Assembly (NCBI GenBank): GCA_029556545.1 | Contig: JAKQEQ010000085.1 | Location: forward strand, 19,069 to 83,068 | Length of the DNA: 64,000 nt | Direction: 5' to 3' | From: Candidatus Hydrogenedentota bacterium | Lineage (GTDB): Bacteria; Hydrogenedentota; Hydrogenedentia; Hydrogenedentales; JAGMZX01 | Shown here: positions 1-23,671 of the stretch, one piece after another | How the letters are laid out: the number at the start of each line of letters is the position of its first letter | How positions within the stretch are numbered: the stretch's first letter is position 1 | The notes under the pieces: model-generated | The model's input: only the letters and a program-made list of their open reading frames with translations | What the model was told of the DNA's origin: nothing | The model's database searches: none | Translations under genes and position numbers: made by a program

Positions 1-987
1 TATCACGGCGGCAAATTCCGGCTGTTTCCCGTGCGTGAAAGCCGGGGGAGCGATCATCTCCCACACGCGACGCCGCGTCCGCCGTTCGAAGCGTTTCAGG
101 CGCGGGTGCGGTCGCCGCGCAAGGTGTGCGATGAGTTGCGTGGACTTGGGCGGGACTGCGGCGCGCGGGCGTTCCACTTCCTGGGCGATGCGACCCCGGC
201 GGCCACGTTCGACGCGCTGTGCTATGAGATACTCGCGGAGTGTCTGCACGTGTTCTATAGCCGTTCCGCGCATGTCCACGACACGGACCCGACGACCCTG
301 TCCACGCTGCACGCCTCGGGGTGTCGCGCCGTTTCGTTTCGGATCGATACGGGCAGCCAACGGTTACTCGAGGACTATTACGGTCATGAATTCGGCGTGA
401 CTCAGATCGAGACGGTGCTGAGCGCTTGCCGCGAGGCGAACCTTTTCACCGTGGCGGCGTTTACGTATCCGTGTCCCGAGGACGATTACCACGCGCGGGC
501 GGAGACGCTGCGGCTGGTGCGGCGGGCGCGGCCGCACGCGGTGCGGCTGGGACTGCCCGAGGTGCTGCCCGACTCGGATTGGTGGGACTTCGCCCGCGAG
601 TTCGGGTTCAAGATCGACGCGCGCGCCGTCGCGCGTTTGGCGACCACGGCGCCCGATCCGTTCGCGACGCCCGGCGCGGACCTCGCCTACGCAATGAAAG
701 GGCGGTCCGCCGCGGCCGTTGGCCAAGAACACACCGGACTTCTCGATGATTTCCGTTTTGAGGGCTTCGCGACGGCGGTGTCGGTCCATGAGGCGCTGCT
801 TGCGCGAGTGTGCGGGCGGCACGACGCCGAGGCGGAGTACGCCGAACGCCTGCGCGAACTTCTGTTCCTGGGCGACGCGGAGGAGCTTGCGGCGGCGGTG
901 CGCGCGTTCAACGATCGGGCGGTGGCGCCCGCGAACACGATTCCGTTCGTGCCGTATGCCACGGTGCGCGCCGCCGTGGGGAACTGA
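1..987 (+). CDS. Radical-SAM-like protein lacking the cluster cysteines (5' truncated by window edge)
   Basis: The frame is open to the left edge, so the ORF-track GTG at 31 is probably internal and the N-terminal part (often a B12-binding domain in this group) lies outside. The visible part reads like the radical SAM core of B12-type enzymes: a start like 'PVRESRG', then 'RVRSPRKVCDEL', a GxExGS-like 'RIDTGSQRLL', and a late 'CREANLFTVAAF' helix. Where the family has CxxxCxxC after 'SRG', this protein has S, P and T (codons 49-51, 61-63, 70-72), so no [4Fe-4S]/SAM cluster could be bound there. It ends 3 nt before a ketosynthase gene, suggesting a shared lipid or polyketide-like pathway. Function is unknown; a structural or regulatory role is inference. 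The fold assignment is fairly confident, the loss of cysteines is directly seen. Confidence 0.75.
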   Translation, partial: YHGGKFRLFPVRESRGSDHLPHATPRPPFEAFQARVRSPRKVCDELRGLGRDCGARAFHFLGDATPAATFDALCYEILAECLHVFYSRSAHVHDTDPTTLSTLHASGCRAVSFRIDTGSQRLLEDYYGHEFGVTQIETVLSACREANLFTVAAFTYPCPEDDYHARAETLRLVRRARPHAVRLGLPEVLPDSDWWDFAREFGFKIDARAVARLATTAPDPFATPGADLAYAMKGRSAAAVGQEHTGLLDDFRFEGFATAVSVHEALLARVCGRHDAEAEYAERLRELLFLGDAEELAAAVRAFNDRAVAPANTIPFVPYATVRAAVGN

Positions 988-990
988 GCC

Positions 991-2235
991 ATGACGCCGG
1001 TCCCGGTGGTGATAACGGGGCTGGGCGTGTTAGCCTGCAACGGGATCGGGCGACGCGCCTTCTGGGACGCCCTGGCCGCCGGCAAATCGGGGATACGGCC
1101 CCTGAGCCGTTTCGATGCTTCGGAGTTTCCGTGCCGGATTGCGGGGGAACTCTGGGACTTCCGCCCCGAGGATTTCATGAGCAAGCGGGTGGTGCAGCAC
1201 TGGCATCGCCACGTGCATCAAGCCGTGGCCAGCGCGCGGCTCGCGGTCGAGGACGCGGGGCTGGCGGCGGCCGCGTATCCCGATGATCGCGTCGCGGTGG
1301 CTGTAGGCACGAGCATAGGATCGCCCAATGAGGCGTATCAGGAACAAGTCGAGGCGCTTCAGTCGGGCGGCTTCCGGAAGGTGAGCAAGTTCGCGTCATC
1401 CGCCTTTTCCGGGCACTCGGCCACGGCCCATGTATCGGTCGATTTTGGATTGCGCGGCCCGGCGATTACTATTGCAAGCGGTTGCGCCACCGGCCTGGAC
1501 GCGCTGGCCTGGGGCGTAAATCAGATACGGCTGGGCAACGCCGACGCGGCCGTCGTCGGCGCGACCGAGTCGCCGTTGTTCCCGATGTCCTTCGCGACGC
1601 AATGTTCGCTGGGTATTCTCTCGCGGCGTAACGACGAACCCGAGAAGGCGATGCGCCCCTTCGACCGGGGCCGGGACGGCATTGTGCTGAGCGAGGGCGC
1701 ATGCACCGTGGTGCTCGAACGGCTGGACCACGCGCGATCGCGCGGCGCGCGCATTCTCGCCGAAGCGGCGGGCAACGGGTCCGCGGCGGAAGCGCGTAAT
1801 CCGCTGTTGCTCGAACAGGACGGCAAGGCGCTGTCGCGCGCGGCGCGCATCGCGATGCGCGAGGCGGGAGTCGCCCCCGGGGATATCGACCACATCCAGT
1901 GTCATGGCGTATCCATCGAGATGTATGATCGGTGCGAGACGAACGCGTACAAGGAGATTCTCGGCGACCGCGCGTACCGGGTCCCGATCTCGGCGGCGAA
2001 ATCGATGGTGGGACAGGCGTATGCCGTGGGCGGGTTGTTTGGCGTGGCTGGCGCGCTGCTGGCGCTTGTCGAGGATATCGTGCCGCCGACGCGCAATCTG
2101 GACGACCCGGACCCGCGGTGCGACCTGGATTACGTGCCTCACCAGGCGCGGCTGAACGACGTGCGCACGGCGCTGGTGGCGGCCATCAGCTTCGGCGGCA
2201 CGCACAGCGCGGCCGTATTACGGCGATGTAACTGA
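991..2235 (+). CDS. FabF-like beta-ketoacyl synthase with altered active site
   Basis: Thiolase-fold condensing enzyme of 414 aa, the usual length for FabF/KAS II. The nucleophile is Cys165 in 'ASGCATG', the first histidine is His305 in 'CHGVS', and the lysine is Lys337 in 'AAKSMVG'. These are each two residues after E. coli FabF C163, H303 and K335. The second histidine (FabF H340) is replaced by Gln342 in 'KSMVGQAYAVGG'. Known family chemistry uses both histidines in decarboxylating the malonyl extender, so activity may be altered or lost. The gene follows a cysteine-less radical-SAM-like gene by 3 nt and its TGA overlaps the next ATG (TGATG). It is probably a secondary lipid or polyketide enzyme rather than the housekeeping FabF. 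Confidence 0.88.
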   Translation: MTPVPVVITGLGVLACNGIGRRAFWDALAAGKSGIRPLSRFDASEFPCRIAGELWDFRPEDFMSKRVVQHWHRHVHQAVASARLAVEDAGLAAAAYPDDRVAVAVGTSIGSPNEAYQEQVEALQSGGFRKVSKFASSAFSGHSATAHVSVDFGLRGPAITIASGCATGLDALAWGVNQIRLGNADAAVVGATESPLFPMSFATQCSLGILSRRNDEPEKAMRPFDRGRDGIVLSEGACTVVLERLDHARSRGARILAEAAGNGSAAEARNPLLLEQDGKALSRAARIAMREAGVAPGDIDHIQCHGVSIEMYDRCETNAYKEILGDRAYRVPISAAKSMVGQAYAVGGLFGVAGALLALVEDIVPPTRNLDDPDPRCDLDYVPHQARLNDVRTALVAAISFGGTHSAAVLRRCN

Positions 2236-4754
2236 TGTTTCCACTGGACCAGACGGCATCGGCGAGCGTGCTGCTGGGTCTCTCGGCGGTATCGAGCTTG
2301 GCCCTCGGCGGGGTGGTGCTGTATCGCAACCCGGCCAAGCTCGCCCACCGCGTATTCGCCCTCCTGACCGTAAACATCGCGCTGTGGGCGCTGGGCGTGC
2401 TCACCATCATCCATTCGCATACGCCGGAAACGGCCCGGTTTCTTATTCAGGTCACGTTTATCGTCGCGGGATTCCTGCCGGCCACCTTCTATCACTTCTG
2501 CGGGTGTTTCCCGAACAATCGCTTCTACGGTTCCCGGATCGCGCTCGTGGTGCTTTACGCCGGCGCGGCGCTCATGGCCATTATTTCGCAGACGCCGTCG
2601 TACATCCGCGATCTGCTCGTGTTTCCAGACCAGCCGCCGCGCGTCACCTACGGTCCGGCGTTTAACGCCTATGGACTGCTGGTACTGGCTTCGATGGTCG
2701 TTTCTTTCGGTAACCTGCTTGTGAAACACCGCACGGCGGCGGGGGTGCAACGCCGCCAGCTCCAACATGTTTTCCTCGGCATTTTCGCCTCGACCGTACT
2801 GGCCACCTTGACGAACGTCCTCGCGCCCGTCATGAACATCGGGTCGCTCGAATTGTACGGGCCGTGTTTTATGGTGCTCCTGATGGCCGTGCTCGCGTAC
2901 AGCATGGTCCGCTATCAGTTGCTCGACATCTGGGTCATCGTCTCGCGCAGCACCATCTATGCGGTGCTCACCGCCACCGTGGTCGCCATCTTCCTGGGCT
3001 CCGTGGCCATCGTCCATTGGCTGGTCAGCGCCACGGGCCACGCACGCGACGTGCTGACCACGGCGCTGGCCGCGATGCTCATCGCACTTGTGATTCAGCC
3101 GTTGAAGGAGCGGCTGCAACTGGTGCTGGACCGTCTCATCCTGAAGCGGCGCTATGACGCCCGGTTGATGACCGAGCGGATCAGCCGCGAAGCGGCGCAA
3201 TTCATGCATCTTCACGCCTTGCTCGAGCGGGTCTGCCAGGATATCCTCCATACCCTCGGCGTGGGACTGAGCAGGGTGTTGTTGGTGTGCGAGAAACAGC
3301 GCGACACCCTGATCACCGAGTACTCGACGCGCCCGGAGGAAATCGGCAGGGAAACCATCGACCTCGATATCCTGCTCGAATATGTGGCGAAGCACCCGGA
3401 GCCGATCGCGCTCGAGGAACTGCTGCACAGCCGCCCCACCGAGGAGCGCATACGCGTAGCGGAGCAATTGGCGGAACTGGACGCCTTTCTGTGCGTGCCG
3501 CTCAAGACGAAGTCAGGAATTGTCGGACTGCTGCTTCTGGGCGAGAAAACATCCCGCGACATCTACACCGCCGAGGACGTCACGATGTTCTCGACACTGG
3601 CCGGGCCGCTGGGCGCGGCAATCGAGAACGCGCGACTCTATCGCAAGATCGAAGAGGTGAACCTGCACCTCGAGCGCATCATGGACAACATGCGCGGCGG
3701 CGTGATCGCCGTGGACGTCAACGGCGTGATCACGACGGTAAACCAGGGCGCGCGCGACATCCTGGGCAAGATCAACGTCGGAGACCGCATGGACGGCCTG
3801 CGACCGCCCCTGGCGGACCTGCTGCGACGCACCCTCGCCGAGCAACGCTCGATCAGCGACTTCGAGACCGTCATCGCTGGTCCGGACGGTGAGCGCATCC
3901 CCGTGCTGCTATCCGCGTCGTTACTGGCCCGCAGCGAGTGGGAAAGCCTCGGTGCGATGGCGTTGCTCTTCAATCTGACGCAGATCAAGCGGCTCGAGGC
4001 GAATGTGCAGCGCGCGGACCGTCTTTCGTCGCTGGGCACGGTGGCGGCGGGCATGGCGCATGAGATCAAGAACCCGCTCGTATCGATTCGGACCTTTACC
4101 CAACTGCTGCCGACCCGGTATCAGGACCCGGAGTTCCGGGCGAGTTTCTCGGAGATCGTGCTTCAGGAGGTGGACCGGATCAACACGATCGTCTCGCGGC
4201 TGCTCGACTTTGCCCGCCCGAGACCGGTCCAGTTCGCGCCGCAGAACCTGCACCGCATTCTTAGCGACACGCTGGCGCTCATCGAAAGCCAGACCCGCAA
4301 GTCCAACATCAAAGTCAACGCGGTCTTTCCGGAAAAGGATCGCGAGGTCAGCGGCGATGAGCAGCAGTTGCACCAGGTGTTTCTGAACCTCCTGCTCAAT
4401 GCGATCGAAGCGCTCCAAGAAAGCCGCGAGCGCCAGATCACCGTCACCATGCGGTATGATCGGGCGCATCTGCGGCGCAAAGACGCGCCCCCGCTCTTTG
4501 ACGCGGAATGTGTTAAGGTGTCGATTGCGGATACGGGATGCGGTATCCCGCAGGACGCGCTGGACCAGGTGTTTACTCCGTTTTTCACGACTAAGGCCAA
4601 CGGCAGCGGGCTCGGATTGTCCGTCGTGCAGGGCATCGTCACGAGTCATGGCGGCGTGATTGATGTGTCGAGCATTCCGGGCATGGGCACGCTGTTCACC
4701 GTCACTTTCCCGCTCATGACCGCCGGACGACCGGCCCAGAGGCAGACACAATGA
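2235..4754 (+). CDS. Membrane sensor histidine kinase (multi-TM, GAF, PAS, HisKA, HATPase)
   Basis: 839 aa. Residues about 1-290 hold 8 or so hydrophobic helices, followed by a GAF-like region (about 320-480), a PAS domain (about 485-590), a HisKA dimerisation domain with phospho-acceptor His609 in 'MAHEIKNPL', and an HATPase with N box 'NLLLNAIEAL', G1 'DTGCGIP' and G2 'GSGLGLS'. All catalytic boxes look intact. The ATG overlaps the ketosynthase stop (TGATG) and the gene's end overlaps the next kinase (ATGA), so these genes are probably co-translated. With the sigma54 activator two genes later it likely forms a two-component system. The architecture resembles PrsK-type kinases of exosortase systems, but no exosortase is visible here, so that link is weak. 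Confidence 0.93.
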   Translation: MFPLDQTASASVLLGLSAVSSLALGGVVLYRNPAKLAHRVFALLTVNIALWALGVLTIIHSHTPETARFLIQVTFIVAGFLPATFYHFCGCFPNNRFYGSRIALVVLYAGAALMAIISQTPSYIRDLLVFPDQPPRVTYGPAFNAYGLLVLASMVVSFGNLLVKHRTAAGVQRRQLQHVFLGIFASTVLATLTNVLAPVMNIGSLELYGPCFMVLLMAVLAYSMVRYQLLDIWVIVSRSTIYAVLTATVVAIFLGSVAIVHWLVSATGHARDVLTTALAAMLIALVIQPLKERLQLVLDRLILKRRYDARLMTERISREAAQFMHLHALLERVCQDILHTLGVGLSRVLLVCEKQRDTLITEYSTRPEEIGRETIDLDILLEYVAKHPEPIALEELLHSRPTEERIRVAEQLAELDAFLCVPLKTKSGIVGLLLLGEKTSRDIYTAEDVTMFSTLAGPLGAAIENARLYRKIEEVNLHLERIMDNMRGGVIAVDVNGVITTVNQGARDILGKINVGDRMDGLRPPLADLLRRTLAEQRSISDFETVIAGPDGERIPVLLSASLLARSEWESLGAMALLFNLTQIKRLEANVQRADRLSSLGTVAAGMAHEIKNPLVSIRTFTQLLPTRYQDPEFRASFSEIVLQEVDRINTIVSRLLDFARPRPVQFAPQNLHRILSDTLALIESQTRKSNIKVNAVFPEKDREVSGDEQQLHQVFLNLLLNAIEALQESRERQITVTMRYDRAHLRRKDAPPLFDAECVKVSIADTGCGIPQDALDQVFTPFFTTKANGSGLGLSVVQGIVTSHGGVIDVSSIPGMGTLFTVTFPLMTAGRPAQRQTQ

Positions 4755-6700
4755 GGGTAATTCTCGTCATAGCCCAGGACCGGGCCGTGCGCGAGTCCAT
4801 ACGCGCCGCCTGGCCCGAGGGGGACCTGCTGCTCTTCGAGGACCGCATCGATGCGGCCGGACGCCGCCTGGTGTCGCTGCAAGCCGACGCCATCGTGCTC
4901 GACGACGCGCCGGGTCTCGGCATGGAAGCCCTTGCGCCCATCAAGGCGCTCGCGCCCGGCACGCCCGTCATCGTGATTGCATCACGCGGCGACCTGGTCA
5001 CGCAGGCCGCGTTTACCCGCGGCGGCGCGGACGCCAGCGTGGCGAAGCCGTTCTCCTGCGAGACGCTGCGCGCGGAAGTAGACCGGCTGACGATGCCCGT
5101 ACCGACGCAGGACGTCGCGCCCGCGCCCGCGGCGCCCGGCGGAACCGGGGGCGGCCTGCTGCTTCAACAACACCAGATGGCCTTACGTTGGCTGAGCCGG
5201 GCTTCGAGTCACAGCGAGGACCCTTGCCGCCTCAGCCAAGCGCTTATCGAGGCGACGGTGGATATCTTCGGCGCGGCGCGCAGCGCGGTTCTCCTGGAGG
5301 AGGAAGGCCTGGTGCGCGTGGCTGCCAGTCAGGGGTTGCCCGAGAACGTGGCGCAGCCGCTTCGGTTGAGTTTCTCGACAGGACTCATGCGGTGGTTTGA
5401 CGCACACGCGTGTCTTATAGACCGCCGCGCCGTCGAGGATCCGAGCGCGCAGGCGGACCCGCACGCGGCGGCCGCGGCGAAGGAGATGCGCCTGCTCCAC
5501 GCGGTGCTCGGGGCGCCGCTGCTTCGCGTGGGCCAGGTGTTCGGCGCCGTGTTGCTGGGTGAGCGCGTGGCGGGCGGGGCCTATACCCTCGAGGAACGGG
5601 AAATCCTGGCCCTCGTGTGCCGCTGTGTCTCGCTCGCCTTCGAACGCGCCCACGTCCACGCGGAAACGGCGCGGGGCCAGGCGCGGCTGGACCGCATACT
5701 GGCCCACATCAACGCCGGCGTGGTTACGGTGGGCTCGAACAAGATCATTGTGATGATGAACCGGAGCGCCGAGCAGTTGCTTAACGTGCGCGCTATCGAC
5801 ATGGTCGGGCGTAGCGTGCAGCGGCTGGGCTCCGCGTTCGCCGACCTTGCCCTGCGCACGCTGGCCGACGGCGCGCCGCGCCTGCGTCAGGAATTTCATG
5901 ACCCCGCGATCAACGCGACACTCGGCCTTAGCGCGACGCCGCTGGGCGACGAGGGTGTCGTTATCGTATTTGCCCGTCTTCCGGCGCGGGACGGGAACCG
6001 GGAGGATCTCGCGCTCAGCCCGGTGTGGGGGTATCTGGCCTCGCGCGTCGCGCAGGAAATCAAGAATCCGATGGTAGCCATTAGTACCTATGCGCAGTTG
6101 CTCCCCAAGAAATATGACGCACCGGACTTCCGTGACTCCTTCTCGGAGGTTGTCCAGAAGGAAGTTGCCCGCATCAACGCGGTGGTCGAGACGCTGTATG
6201 CGTTCGCGGAAACGCCGCGCCTCGCGCTCGAAGCCGCCGACGTGGACGAGGCCGTGCGCGCCGTGCTCGATTCCATGCGCGATGAGATGCGCGAGCACGC
6301 GATCACGGTGGACGCCGAGTTCCAGGCGGGCGGCGCGCTGGCGGAGATTGATCGGAGCCGCTTCGCGACGGCGCTGGCGCACGTCGTGCGCAACGCCATC
6401 GACGCCATGGCGCACGGCGGCACACTTTCGGTGCGCACGAGCCGCGAGAACGGGTGCGTCGAAGTGCGCGTCACGGACACCGGCCCCGGTATCCCGGAAG
6501 AGGATGCGGCCAACATCTTCCTGCCGTTCTTCAGCACGCGCGAGAGGGGTATGGGACTGGGGCTCGCCATCGCGGGACGCATCCTGAAACAACACCAAGG
6601 CGAACTGAGGCTGCTGCACAGCGAGCACGGCGGGAGCTGCTTCGCCCTCGAACTCCCGGCGTCGGAAAAGACTCATGCAAACCATACTCGCGGTGGATGA
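4751..6700 (+). CDS. Receiver-GAF-PAS-histidine-kinase-like protein with phospho-His replaced by Gln
   Basis: 649 aa, soluble. A receiver-like domain (1-115) has Asp51 in 'IVLDD' and Lys99 in 'VAKPF' but only one acidic-pocket residue. GAF and PAS-like regions follow. The dimerisation domain (about 425-490) is clearly paralogous to that of the upstream kinase (shared 'QLLP', 'DSFSEVV', 'EVARIN' pattern), but its H box reads 'VAQEIKNPM': the phospho-acceptor His is Gln435. The HATPase keeps N box 'VVRNAIDAM', G1 'DTGPGIP' and G2 'GMGLGLA', so ATP binding is likely retained. It may phosphorylate or modulate the partner kinase as a heterodimer, or be a pseudokinase; this is inference. It overlaps both neighbours, so the three signalling genes form one unit. 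Confidence 0.9.
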   Translation: MRVILVIAQDRAVRESIRAAWPEGDLLLFEDRIDAAGRRLVSLQADAIVLDDAPGLGMEALAPIKALAPGTPVIVIASRGDLVTQAAFTRGGADASVAKPFSCETLRAEVDRLTMPVPTQDVAPAPAAPGGTGGGLLLQQHQMALRWLSRASSHSEDPCRLSQALIEATVDIFGAARSAVLLEEEGLVRVAASQGLPENVAQPLRLSFSTGLMRWFDAHACLIDRRAVEDPSAQADPHAAAAAKEMRLLHAVLGAPLLRVGQVFGAVLLGERVAGGAYTLEEREILALVCRCVSLAFERAHVHAETARGQARLDRILAHINAGVVTVGSNKIIVMMNRSAEQLLNVRAIDMVGRSVQRLGSAFADLALRTLADGAPRLRQEFHDPAINATLGLSATPLGDEGVVIVFARLPARDGNREDLALSPVWGYLASRVAQEIKNPMVAISTYAQLLPKKYDAPDFRDSFSEVVQKEVARINAVVETLYAFAETPRLALEAADVDEAVRAVLDSMRDEMREHAITVDAEFQAGGALAEIDRSRFATALAHVVRNAIDAMAHGGTLSVRTSRENGCVEVRVTDTGPGIPEEDAANIFLPFFSTRERGMGLGLAIAGRILKQHQGELRLLHSEHGGSCFALELPASEKTHANHTRGG

Positions 6701-8060
6701 CGAATTCAGCGTCCGCAAGTCCTACGAACTGGTTCTCGGCGATGCCTACCGGCTCCTGCTGGCGGAAGACGTCGCGAAAGCGTTCGCCGTGCTTGAACAA
6801 CAGCACGTCGATCTCATCCTGCTCGACCTGATCCTGCCCGGCATGACGGGGCTCGAATTTCTTGCTCAACTGCAGGAACGGGGCGAATTGACGCCGGTCA
6901 TCGTGGTAACCGGTTCGAACACCGTGCAGACGGCGGTCGAAGTGATGAAGCGCGGCGCGCGCGATTTTGTCGTCAAGCCGTTTGACGTGGAGGATTTGCT
7001 CCGGCTGGTCGATCGTGTGCTGCGCGAGCGGCGTGAGCAACTGGAGCTTTATGCGCTCCGGGAGCGCGACGCCGCGGGCTTCGAGCAGATCATCGGCGAC
7101 GCGCCCGCCCTGCGCGAGGCGTTGGCCAAGGCGCGTCAGGCCATGCAGGTGGACTCCACGGTGTTGATCACCGGAGAGAGCGGCACGGGCAAGGACCTGC
7201 TCGCGCGCGCCATTCATTGCGGCGGCAGGCGCGCCGCGGGCCCCTTTGTGCCCATATCCTGCTGCGCGATCCCCGAGCAACTGGTCGAGAGTGAACTGTT
7301 CGGCCACATGAAGGGCGCGTTCACCGGCGCGACCGAAACGCGCGTCGGCAAACTCGAAGTGGCGGACGGCGGCACCTTGTTCCTCGATGAGATCGGCGAA
7401 ATGCCGCTCGACGCCCAAGCCAAGCTGCTGCGCGTGCTCCAGGACGGCGCCTTCTATCCGGTCGGCGCGACCAAGACGATCCACGTGGACTTGCGCGTTG
7501 TCTGCGCCACCAATCGCGACCTGTGGCGGACCGTGCGCGAGGGCGGGTTCCGGGAAGACCTTTTCTATCGCGTGAACGTGCTGCCCATCGAGATGCCGCC
7601 GCTGCGCAAGCGGCGCGAGGACATCCCCCGGCTTGTCGCGCATTTCGTCGCGAAGCACGCGCCTCACGTGAACGCGCGTTGCGAGAGCGTGGCGCCGAAG
7701 GCGCTGGCGCATCTGGCGGCGTACGGGTGGCCGGGGAACGTGCGCGAGCTGGAGAACACGATCGAGCGTCTGCTCGTGATGCACAGCGCCGAACCGGTAT
7801 TGCAGGCCGAGCATCTCGAGGGCATATTGCCGGGCACCGGCCGCGAGGCCGCGCGCGGGGTTGATGAATTCGAGGGGCTCCCGCTCACGGAGGCGACTGA
7901 CCGCCTCGAGCGACATTTGATACTGCGCGCGCTGGATCGAGCGGATTACGTGCAGTCGCAGGCCGCCGAACTCTTGGGCACGACGCGCCGCATTCTCAAG
8001 TATAAGATGGATCATTTGGGCATAACGCCTCCCGGCGAACCGGACGACGAAGCCGGGTAA
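6675..8060 (+). CDS. NtrC-family sigma54-dependent response regulator
   Basis: 461 aa with the standard three-domain layout. The receiver (1-120) has acidic pair 'DDE', phospho-acceptor Asp51 in 'ILLDLILPG' and Lys in 'VVKPF'. The AAA+ domain (about 135-375) has Walker A 'GESGTGKD', the sigma54-contacting loop 'GAFTGA', and Walker B-like '[11 protein letters not shown]'. A C-terminal Fis-type helix-turn-helix ('[17 protein letters not shown]') binds enhancer DNA. It starts inside the end of the kinase-like gene (26-nt overlap) and should be the output of the two kinases. I could not find a convincing -24/-12 promoter in the window, so its targets are unknown. Confidence 0.96.
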
Positions 8061-8121: not shown

Positions 8122-9021
8122 GTGAGCATTACGGTAGTGGGATCGGTGGCGCTGGATACGGTGGAAACCCCGTGGGGAAGGAACGAGGACGGCTTGGGCG
8201 GCGCGGCGGTCTATTTTGCCTTGGCGGCGGCGAACTTCACGCCTGTGCACATGGTGGGCGTTGTGGGCGACGATTTCCCGGATCGGCACATGCAATTGCT
8301 GGCTGCGAAGGGCATCGATCTCACGGGACTCGAACACGCCTCGGGTGCGACGTTCCGCTGGTCGGGCCGCTACCACGAGGACGTGAACATTCGCGACACC
8401 CTCGATACGCAATTGAATGTGTTCGAACAGTTCCATCCCAGCATTCCCGAGACCGCCCGGACCGCCGAGCTTCTTTTTCTTGGAAACATCCATCCGGCAC
8501 TTCAGGCGGAGGTGCTTGCACAGACGCGGCCTCGCTTCGTCGCGATGGATACGATGAATCTCTGGATCGCAACCACGCCGGATGCGCTGCGCGCCGTGCT
8601 GCGGGAGGTGGACGCCATTGTCATTAACGACGGCGAAGCCCGGCAGTTGACCGGAGAGGCCAACGTGGTGGCGGCCGCGCGGCAGGTGCAGGCGCTCGGG
8701 CCGAGGATCGTCGTTGTGAAGAAGGGCGAACACGGCGCTATGCTCTTCACCGAGGCCGACGCGGTCTTCGCCATACCCGCGCTGCCGCTGAAGACAGTGG
8801 TGGATCCGACGGGCGCGGGCGACAGCTTCGCGGGCGGATTCCTGGGCTGTGTCGCGCAATCGGGCGATACGTCCTCCGCCACACTGCGGCGCGCGGTGGC
8901 CTACGGCACGGTGGTCGCGTCGTTTACCTGCGAAGCATTCGGGCCGGCCCGGCTCGCCGAGATTGGGCCGGCGGACATCGAGGCGCGCGCGGCCCTGCTT
9001 CGGCGGCTCTCGGAATTCTGA
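8122..9021 (+). CDS. PfkB-family carbohydrate kinase
   Basis: 299 aa ribokinase-fold kinase. It has an N-terminal 'GSVALD' strand, a glycine pair in 'GLGGAAVYFA', and the family signature 'DPTGAGDSFAGG' whose Asp234 is the expected catalytic base. The GTG start is chosen because AAGGAG lies 7 nt upstream. The family phosphorylates sugars or nucleosides using ATP; the exact substrate cannot be read from sequence. It stands alone between the regulator and the secernin-like gene, with about 60 nt and 95 nt on either side, so it need not belong to either. Confidence 0.93.
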   Translation: MSITVVGSVALDTVETPWGRNEDGLGGAAVYFALAAANFTPVHMVGVVGDDFPDRHMQLLAAKGIDLTGLEHASGATFRWSGRYHEDVNIRDTLDTQLNVFEQFHPSIPETARTAELLFLGNIHPALQAEVLAQTRPRFVAMDTMNLWIATTPDALRAVLREVDAIVINDGEARQLTGEANVVAAARQVQALGPRIVVVKKGEHGAMLFTEADAVFAIPALPLKTVVDPTGAGDSFAGGFLGCVAQSGDTSSATLRRAVAYGTVVASFTCEAFGPARLAEIGPADIEARAALLRRLSEF

Positions 9022-14111: not shown

Positions 14112-14425
14112 CGCGGGGCGAGAAGCCGGGTACAATTAGCGCAGGCAGGTCGCGGCGCTGGTAAACGGTATGGACGGCATGGTCAAGATGGACGGCAGGA
14201 GATTTCCATATGGGATGGACGACTTTTGCGGAGCATCCTGTCACCGATGCGGGCCGGTTGTGCGTTTCTGTTAGCGTGGGACGCGCGGTGTGCCTTTGGC
14301 ATAGTGATTTGGCCGCGACTAATGCGATCCCGTCAGCGCCACCGAGCCGCCCCGGACGTGGGAATGCCGTGGATGGTGGCGGTGTTACCAAGCGTTCCGC
14401 GAAAACGCAACAGCAAGGGCCTGCA
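14112..14425. other. Intergenic region before the first DUF5011 gene
   Basis: About 314 nt without a gene I can support. The frame of the downstream gene stays open through it but the product lacks a plausible start. It holds a -10-like TACAAT near 14130 and a short 'atggac' run (about 14169-14195) related to small repeats seen near 53632 and 61665. No RNA gene is evident. Confidence 0.5.
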
Positions 14426-15535
14426 ATGAAAGGTCAACTCGGCTTCGGTCTGCTCACGGGTGCGATGTGTGCCGCCATCGCGTTAGCGACGGCCCCCGCG
14501 CGTGCCCAGGATATCGATAATCCTTTGGGCATGACTGTGACTCATGACCTGCCCAACGGCTATACGGCGGGGCAGGACGTCACGGTGGCGGTAACCCTCG
14601 CCGTGGCCGAATCCGGGACGATCTTGGCGCTCGGGCTGGTCGAGGAACTACCTCCAGGATGGTCCTTCAAGGCGCTGGGAGAGTCTTCCGCACCGTTACC
14701 GGCAATCTTTCCCGCCGCCGGCGCTGGAGGCGAACTCGGGTTTGTCTGGATCACCGCGCCAAGCACGTTTCCCTACACGTTGCGTTTTGTGTTGACACCG
14801 CCAGCCACCCAGACGGAATCCCAGGAATTACGTGGCCAGGCGGAATATCGATTGGAGACGGGCGGAGCGCGCCGTACGGACGTGGCCGTGCTGGTGCTGG
14901 ACCCGGGTATCGACTATGAGCCGCCGGTGATCACGCTGCTGGGCGGGGAAATTGTAGCGGTCGAGCAGTATCAACCCTACATCGAGCCGGGCTACACCGC
15001 CGTCGATGATGTGGACGGCGACATTACCGGCTGGGTCGAGGTCGAGGGCGCAGTGGACACCGCGGTTCTGGGCGATTACGAACTGACGTACCGCGTCAGC
15101 GACAGCGCGGGCAACGCCGCCTCGGTAACGCGGACAGTCCGGGTCATCGACTATGAGCCGCCGGTGATCACGCTGCTGGGCGGGGAAATTGTAGCGGTCG
15201 AGCAGTATCAACCCTACATAGAGCCGGGCTACACCGCCGTCGATGATGTGGACGGCGACATTACCGGCTGGGTCGAGGTCGAGGGCGCAGTGGACACTGC
15301 GGTCCTCGGCGATTACGAACTGACGTACCGTGTCAGTGACAGCGCGGGCAACGCCGCCTCGGTAACGCGGACAGTCCGGGTCGTGGAACCGAATACGACG
15401 GTCAAGGGATTCTTCTGTTGTTCGGGGGACATGGCGGCCTCGGGGCCGGGCCGGTACTGCGATCTGGGTGTTCTTGTAGGTGTCGGACTGAGTCTTTTTC
15501 TGCTGCGTCGCCCGCGACGAGGCGAGATTTTGTGA
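14426..15535 (+). CDS. Exported protein with two near-identical DUF5011 (Ig-like) repeats and a C-terminal anchor
   Basis: 369 aa from the ATG at 14426, chosen because it gives a signal peptide ('LLTGAMCAAIALATAPARA'). Residues about 30-160 form a domain shared with the next gene ('GYTAGQDVTV', 'ELPPGWSFKALG'). Two 79-residue DUF5011 repeats follow ('PPVITLLGGE', 'GDITGWVEVEG', 'YRVSDSAGNAAS'). The C-terminus has a CC pair, a hydrophobic helix and 'RRPRRG', the layout of cleavable sorting tails such as MYXO-CTERM or JDVT-CTERM, though I cannot assign a class. It is probably a surface or periplasmic protein of unknown role, paired with the paralogue immediately downstream. Confidence 0.85.
   Translation: MKGQLGFGLLTGAMCAAIALATAPARAQDIDNPLGMTVTHDLPNGYTAGQDVTVAVTLAVAESGTILALGLVEELPPGWSFKALGESSAPLPAIFPAAGAGGELGFVWITAPSTFPYTLRFVLTPPATQTESQELRGQAEYRLETGGARRTDVAVLVLDPGIDYEPPVITLLGGEIVAVEQYQPYIEPGYTAVDDVDGDITGWVEVEGAVDTAVLGDYELTYRVSDSAGNAASVTRTVRVIDYEPPVITLLGGEIVAVEQYQPYIEPGYTAVDDVDGDITGWVEVEGAVDTAVLGDYELTYRVSDSAGNAASVTRTVRVVEPNTTVKGFFCCSGDMAASGPGRYCDLGVLVGVGLSLFLLRRPRRGEIL
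14912..15385 (+). repeat. Tandem 237-bp coding repeat (two copies)
   Basis: Two adjacent 237-nt units (14912-15148 and 15149-15385) encode the two DUF5011 domains. They differ at only a handful of mostly silent positions (for example catcgag/catagag), pointing to recent duplication or ongoing gene conversion. Confidence 0.92.
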
Positions 15536-23017: not shown

Positions 23018-23671
23018 ATGGTGGGAACGAAAGGACGCATCATGGGCGCAATAGTCGCCGGAGTTGTGGTGGTATTGCTGGGCGCTTGGACCGCTGTGGG
23101 ATATACCTCGGCCAAGGGTATCGAGACGCCGCAATATACCGTGGTGCGCGAGGCCGACGGGTACGCGATTCGCGAATACGCGGGGTATATCCGCGCGGAA
23201 GTCACGCTGACCGGGAAGTACCGGGAGACGTTGTACGGCGGGTTTCGCGAAGTGGCGGACTATATCTTCGGGAACAACTCCCAACGCGCGGACATCGCCA
23301 TGACGGCGCCGGTCATGTCGGAGAAGTCGGGCAAGATCGCCATGACCGCACCGGTCCTACACGAGAAGGGCGATAGTGAAGCCTCGTATAGCGTGGCATT
23401 CATCATGCCTCGTGAATACAGTATGGAAACGCTTCCGCGGCCCAACAACCCGAAGGTGCGCCTGCGCGAAATCGTTTCCCAGCGCTTCGCCGTGCTCGAA
23501 TTCGGCGGCTACGCCACGGAGCGCCGGGCGAGAAAGAAGACCGAGCGTCTCGTAAGCATGCTCGAACGGGATGGCGTTCGCGCGGTGGGAGAACCGATTG
23601 TGGCGCAATACGACCCGCCCTGGACGCCTTTCTACATGCGCCGCAACGAGATTCACGTTCCCGTGGAATAA
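23018..23671 (+). CDS. SOUL heme-binding family protein
   Basis: 217 aa with one N-terminal hydrophobic helix (about 9-27), so it is membrane-anchored or secreted, followed by a SOUL/HBP domain. Hallmarks are 'YAIREYAGYIRAEV', two 'IAMTAPV' motifs and 'YDPPWTPFYMRRNEI' at the end. Family members bind heme or tetrapyrroles; their role in bacteria is unclear. It converges with the membrane protein gene on the minus strand, 9 nt between stops. Confidence 0.92.
   Translation: MVGTKGRIMGAIVAGVVVVLLGAWTAVGYTSAKGIETPQYTVVREADGYAIREYAGYIRAEVTLTGKYRETLYGGFREVADYIFGNNSQRADIAMTAPVMSEKSGKIAMTAPVLHEKGDSEASYSVAFIMPREYSMETLPRPNNPKVRLREIVSQRFAVLEFGGYATERRARKKTERLVSMLERDGVRAVGEPIVAQYDPPWTPFYMRRNEIHVPVE

Follow-up and report, generated by a model that had tools for sequence, protein, structure and literature searches.

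A B12/radical SAM-like protein of Hydrogenedentota without cluster cysteines, encoded beside a modified ketosynthase

The 5′ edge of the window (the whole stretch of DNA analysed, 64,000 nucleotides long; G000:C87:19069-83068) cuts a gene for a Cys-less B12/radical-SAM-like protein, here named RSL. We regard it as solidly established that the cluster site of this protein has been lost, that its fold and the selection upon it have been kept and that the gene is not decaying. That cluster chemistry is lost in the RSL of the window's lineage is well supported. The original prediction of a conserved fold without its cofactor beside an altered ketosynthase is thereby supported by a confident structural model (mean pLDDT 90.7) and adjacency to the ketosynthase for at least 36 of 57 RSL copies, and low dN/dS shows the protein to be under selection. 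Most members of the RSL family would be misannotated if the family were labelled as radical SAM enzymes.

Loss of the cluster site from a complete gene

The window holds the 3′ part of RSL (1..987, forward strand; residues 235-562 of 562), with the 5′ 702 nt (L003:9368-10069) located upstream. The open frame at 1-987 is real: genome sequence upstream of the window, called for in the original prediction and since obtained, gave a complete gene of 562 codons (L003:9368-11056, 562 aa from ATG). Neither CxxxCxxC nor CxxxxCxxC occurs anywhere in this full frame, whose cysteines are at residues 78, 171, 277, 287, 308, 315, 342, 377, 392 and 505. RSL therefore lacks the CxxxCxxC, or variant, by which a catalytic radical SAM protein ligates its [4Fe-4S] cluster. 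A search of the same genome found no second copy, and most genomes searched carry one.

The former [4Fe-4S] site was located in an alignment of 57 near-complete RSL homologues, all from one phylum (Hydrogenedentota), with seven canonical B12/radical SAM proteins from that phylum. Here the columns of the cluster cysteines are occupied by Ser251 (window nt 49-51), Pro255 (61-63) and Thr258 (70-72), the RSL sequence SRGSDHLPHATPRPPFEAFQARVRSPRKV aligning with SRGCPWGRCRFC...YRRRSPENV in the canonical relatives. Replacement of all three cysteines is thus confirmed. The site, at 49..72 on the forward strand, had been correctly placed but was given in codons; it comprises nucleotides 49-72, which are window codons 17-24 and residues 251-258. 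A motif hidden in the N-terminus outside the window or in an alternative frame was rejected, as none is present there. A frameshift is likewise ruled out because no other frame carries the motif at the site, the single chance match being out of frame and far downstream. Sequencing error is excluded because a 70%-identical RSL copy from the same genus also lacks the triad.

Between the replaced positions lie His253 and His256 (window 55-57 and 64-66), an HxxH within the old cluster site that, from its sequence, may be a metal site. The same HxxH occurs in several relatives from families f1, f9 and f11 in the 57-row alignment. It was rejected as a universal replacement for the cluster, being present in only part of the Cys-less rows.

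An AlphaFold model built from 40 family members was of high confidence (mean pLDDT 90.7, pTM 0.91) and contains the partial TIM barrel of the radical SAM type. Its best matches in the PDB were TsrM (6wte, the top hit, E 7.8e-19), MgmA, AprD4, TokK, CysS and OxsB. From this model and its matches, the predicted RSL fold is that of a B12-type radical SAM enzyme. TsrM, TokK, CysS, OxsB and MgmA share with RSL the Rossmann-like N-terminal domain and the radical SAM barrel, and most of the chain is matched. However, RSL differs from these cobalamin-dependent enzymes in having no cluster cysteines, in the loss of the GxESG Glu and in new invariant P, D, H and E residues, whereas eight members of its own family retain CxxxCxxC.

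Sequence profiles matched RSL below their cut-offs. The radical SAM profile PF04055 scored 14.5 bits (15.9 for the part in the window) against a cut-off of 29.5. The B12-binding profile PF02310 scored 19.3 bits against 32.1, with the N-terminal Rossmann-like fold present in the model and the N-terminal domain retained across the RSL family. BzaD and other B12/radical SAM models of NCBIfam were the best profile matches, with RSL far below their cut-offs; BzaD itself (TIGR04385) matched residues 130-408 (E 2.4e-14, 53 bits against 450), and the ladderane-type B12/radical SAM model TIGR04072 scored 30.4 against 360.

Distribution of the loss, selection and a conserved pocket

The family was sought in 68 genomes of the phylum, all of one order, together with a search of that order. 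A scan with a single peptide pattern derived from 16 rows returned 16 loci, 15 of them titled as Candidatus Hydrogenedentota or Hydrogenedentes and one as 'uncultured bacterium'. The cysteine triad is absent from 49/57 homologues, an absence common to several families, and in several rows the entire loop of the cluster site is shortened or deleted. The other eight homologues carry CxxxCxxC at the same columns, and all of them belong to family f4.

In a tree of RSL only, the AU test does not reject one clade for all Cys-less rows (p = 0.27). However, a better resolved tree, built from the operon partners (30 rows, 2362 columns), does not allow the Cys-bearing rows to form a single clade (AU p = 3.2e-5), and one loss therefore fails to explain the pattern; a single loss was rejected on this tree, though not on that of RSL. 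The partner tree groups f1, the family of the window, with f7, f8, f9 and f11, all Cys-less, with full support, and places the Cys-bearing G056 as sister to this group. About five losses are counted on it if the triad was never regained, a number that depends on the root, which was set at the midpoint for drawing only.

None of the listed homologues has an internal stop in its frame. Pairwise dN/dS (NG86) was about 0.09 for L048/L049 (dN 0.038, dS 0.439) and for L053/L056 (dN 0.020, dS 0.231), about 0.10 for L071/L076 (dN 0.157, dS 1.497) and about 0.16 between the window and L044 (dN 0.209, dS 1.276), with dS near saturation in the latter two pairs. With frames open and dN/dS low (0.09-0.16), RSL is not decaying. 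Relaxation of the cluster loop after its loss was also considered and dropped, as dN by region was mixed between pairs. Of the original refutation, orthologues with normal cysteines combined with decay here, only the first half holds: eight such orthologues exist and signs of decay are absent. Loss without decay (49/57, low dN/dS) is therefore retained; that the family would be mixed had not been anticipated.

A closer inspection of the alignment revealed six residues, Ser353, Gln354, Pro391, Asp396, His398 and Glu402, that are identical in 57/57 homologues, Cys-bearing and Cys-less alike; Gly341 and Gly352 are found in 56/57 and Cys342 in 54/57. Three segments on the forward strand contain them: SGC (residues 340-342; 316..324), common to the canonical relatives, DTGSQ (350-354; 346..360), with Ser353 and Gln354, and YPCPEDDYHARAE (390-402; 466..504), which includes Pro391, Asp396, His398 and Glu402 and is specific to the family, with or without the Cys triad. 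In the seven canonical relatives the column of Asp396 holds Thr, that of Pro391 Gly or Ala and that of His398 Glu, Ala or Gln, while Gln354 is common and Glu occurs at 402 in several. The likeness of 'RIDTGSQ' to a GxExGS motif holds for the region and not for the canonical SAM-binding Glu of GxESG, which is Asp350 in this protein and in many relatives is Pro, Leu or Gly. Secondary-structure prediction places the DTGSQ and PCPEDDYH segments just after barrel strands 342-350 and 383-389, which would put the invariant residues on the side of the barrel where relatives bind SAM and substrate. As the six residues are invariant regardless of Cys and mostly different in the canonical relatives, we read them as a putative pocket that predates the cluster loss and outlived it.

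The ketosynthase and its operon

RSL is followed after 3 nt by a gene for a FabF-like ketosynthase (991..2235, forward strand). At 29 loci the gap likewise had a median of 3 nt, and both genes lay on the same strand in 29/29. That this ketosynthase is modified, as originally proposed, proved correct. Cys165 (nt 1483-1485) and His305 (nt 1903-1905) are retained and the second His is replaced by Gln342 (nt 2014-2016), giving C-H-Q in place of the Cys-His-His active site. Its closest solved relative is the FabF (KAS II) structure 1j3n; it differs from FabF in scoring 368 on TIGR03150, below the cut-off of 493.75, and in having C-H-Q, not C-H-H, in all operon copies read. In each copy read over this stretch, the KSMxGH of FabF is KSMxGQ (once KSLTGQ), whereas two other FabF-like genes, from the same search, retain the His.

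Downstream on the same strand are a membrane histidine kinase, HK1 (2235..4754; 7TM-GAF-PAS-HisKA-HATPase), and a second histidine kinase, HK2 (4751..6700; receiver-like-GAF-PAS-HisKA-HATPase), both assigned with the aid of synteny. An NtrC-type sigma-54 response regulator (6675..8060), assigned by domains and synteny, comes next, and a PfkB-family kinase (8122..9021) ends the conserved gene order. The order RSL-ketosynthase-HK1-HK2-NtrC, often then PfkB, recurs across families. At least 36/57 RSL copies lie directly upstream of a C-H-Q ketosynthase, a count in which the window is included, as are loci from G020, G030, G028, G061, G062 and G067; all eight Cys-bearing copies sit in such operons. 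Within the operon RSL evolves fastest, with a median identity to the window of 34%, against 67% for the ketosynthase, 52% for HK1 and 64% for NtrC.

Among 34 genomes searched, those of families f6 and f10 all lack the C-H-Q ketosynthase, although most of them have RSL; RSL is therefore not solely for the ketosynthase. In f6, G002 and G024 (loci L071, L076, L046, L073), PfkB adjoins RSL without the ketosynthase-kinase block. The region upstream of RSL shows no excess of sigma-54 promoters, its best scores averaging 4.95 against 4.96 for shuffled sequence.

The nearest parallel to this arrangement is found in the fatty-acid clusters of anammox bacteria (Kuenenia), where a B12/radical SAM protein lies near divergent FabF paralogues with altered active sites (PMC2649909; TIGR04072). 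However, the divergent Kuenenia copies lose the active-site Cys, whereas the window ketosynthase retains Cys and the first His and has Gln for the second. Moreover, the window operon continues with two kinases and a sigma-54 activator. PrsK/PrsR of PEP-CTERM systems also combine a kinase with a sigma-54 response regulator, but the window genes score below the respective cut-offs (PrsK, 117 against 300; PEP_resp_reg, 368 against 502.6). In the open-access literature, searched for the phylum and for Cys-less or pseudoenzyme forms of radical SAM proteins, we found no description of the RSL family or of an operon joining a ketosynthase to a two-component system.

Possible roles of RSL

RSL is most likely a pseudoenzyme with a retained ligand pocket, and we infer a role as sensor or scaffold. 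Its ancestor would have been a radical SAM enzyme of the cobalamin type. In most lineages, that of the window included, the [4Fe-4S] site has been lost, and radical SAM chemistry with it, but the two-domain fold has been kept, together with a putative polar pocket where the barrel opens. The protein may bind the ancestral substrate or cofactor and signal its own state through contact. In complete operons this signal would most likely be read by the co-translated ketosynthase and by the relay of 7TM kinase, second kinase and NtrC, which would tune sigma-54 transcription to the cell's acyl or lipid state. That RSL is a ligand-binding pseudoenzyme passing on its ligand state by contact, and so tuning its partners where the operon is complete, is in our judgement a strong candidate, if somewhat short of probable. 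The loss of the cysteines, the modelled fold, selection, the invariant residues and linkage in the operon were all observed; ligand binding, contact with the ketosynthase or kinases and the identity of what is sensed are the parts that we infer. A sensory role appears likeliest because the kinases share the operon, and the fast evolution of RSL is easier to reconcile with the sensing of ligands that vary than with a scaffold. Counted against a sensor and relay are the occurrence of RSL without the ketosynthase-kinase block in f6 and f10 and the lack of a sigma-54 promoter excess. Since RSL persists there without these partners, its basic role would be independent of them. Of the 'non-radical or scaffold role' originally suggested, the non-radical part is thus well supported, and service to the ketosynthase as a scaffold would be only part of the picture, given f6 and f10.

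Alternatively, RSL might still be an enzyme, with Asp396, His398 and Glu402 at the barrel mouth, together with the HxxH of this lineage, binding a single metal ion for non-radical chemistry. The three residues are invariant in 57/57, four f11 rows, two f9 rows and both rows of f1 have HxxH at positions +2/+5 of the former site, and His occupies +5 in 13/49 Cys-less rows. However, Asp396, His398 and Glu402 are just as invariant in Cys-bearing rows, and therefore did not arise as a replacement when the cluster was lost; moreover, the +5 His is far from universal, and the loop is shortened or deleted in several rows. We consider a metal enzyme unlikely. It is more doubtful still that RSL instead assists, without catalysis of its own, an intact radical SAM enzyme whose gene lies elsewhere, stabilising it or handing over substrate or cobalamin. 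Many genomes across the phylum encode canonical B12/radical SAM relatives, and that of the window has 37 PF04055 matches, but the conserved operon contains no intact radical SAM gene and eight lineages have the triad in RSL itself.

The retention of the N-terminal domain family-wide, and TsrM with its cobalamin as nearest solved fold, would suit a cobalamin carrier or a cobalamin-only methyltransferase, whose N-terminal domain binds B12 and whose barrel performs a cluster-free polar methyl transfer. Against this stand the weak B12-binding Pfam match (19.3 bits, cut-off 32.1), the identity of another close fold match, AprD4, as a dehydratase, and the retention of the cluster in known structures; we think this reading improbable to a similar degree. 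Rapid divergence and the shrinking motif loop might suggest a pseudogene on its way out. This was rejected as scarcely credible, being contradicted already by open frames without internal stops in the listed homologues and by low dN/dS, and also by the invariant residues and the conserved position in the operon.

The pseudoenzyme reading could be extended to a sensory module specific to the phylum, in which a radical SAM enzyme was repeatedly made into a ligand sensor by discarding the cluster and keeping the pocket and, with the C-H-Q ketosynthase, would feed an acyl or lipid signal to a two-kinase sigma-54 relay. In this full form we hold it to be speculative and unlikely. Triad-bearing and triad-less orthologues that share their operon and invariant pocket offer a natural series on the loss of a cofactor with retained usefulness, and siblings of the two kinds can be compared directly for their cluster content, their cleavage of SAM and the ligands they bind. 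The phylum is represented here by metagenome-assembled genomes.

Lastly, two further genes of the window were noted by eye. The one at 14210-15535 contains two near-identical repeats (YEPPVITLLGGE...) and ends in a tail, FFCCSGDMAASGPGRYCDLGVLVGVGLSLFLLRRPRR, that resembles a C-terminal sorting signal, and the product of that at 23018-23671 resembles a SOUL-type heme-binding protein.
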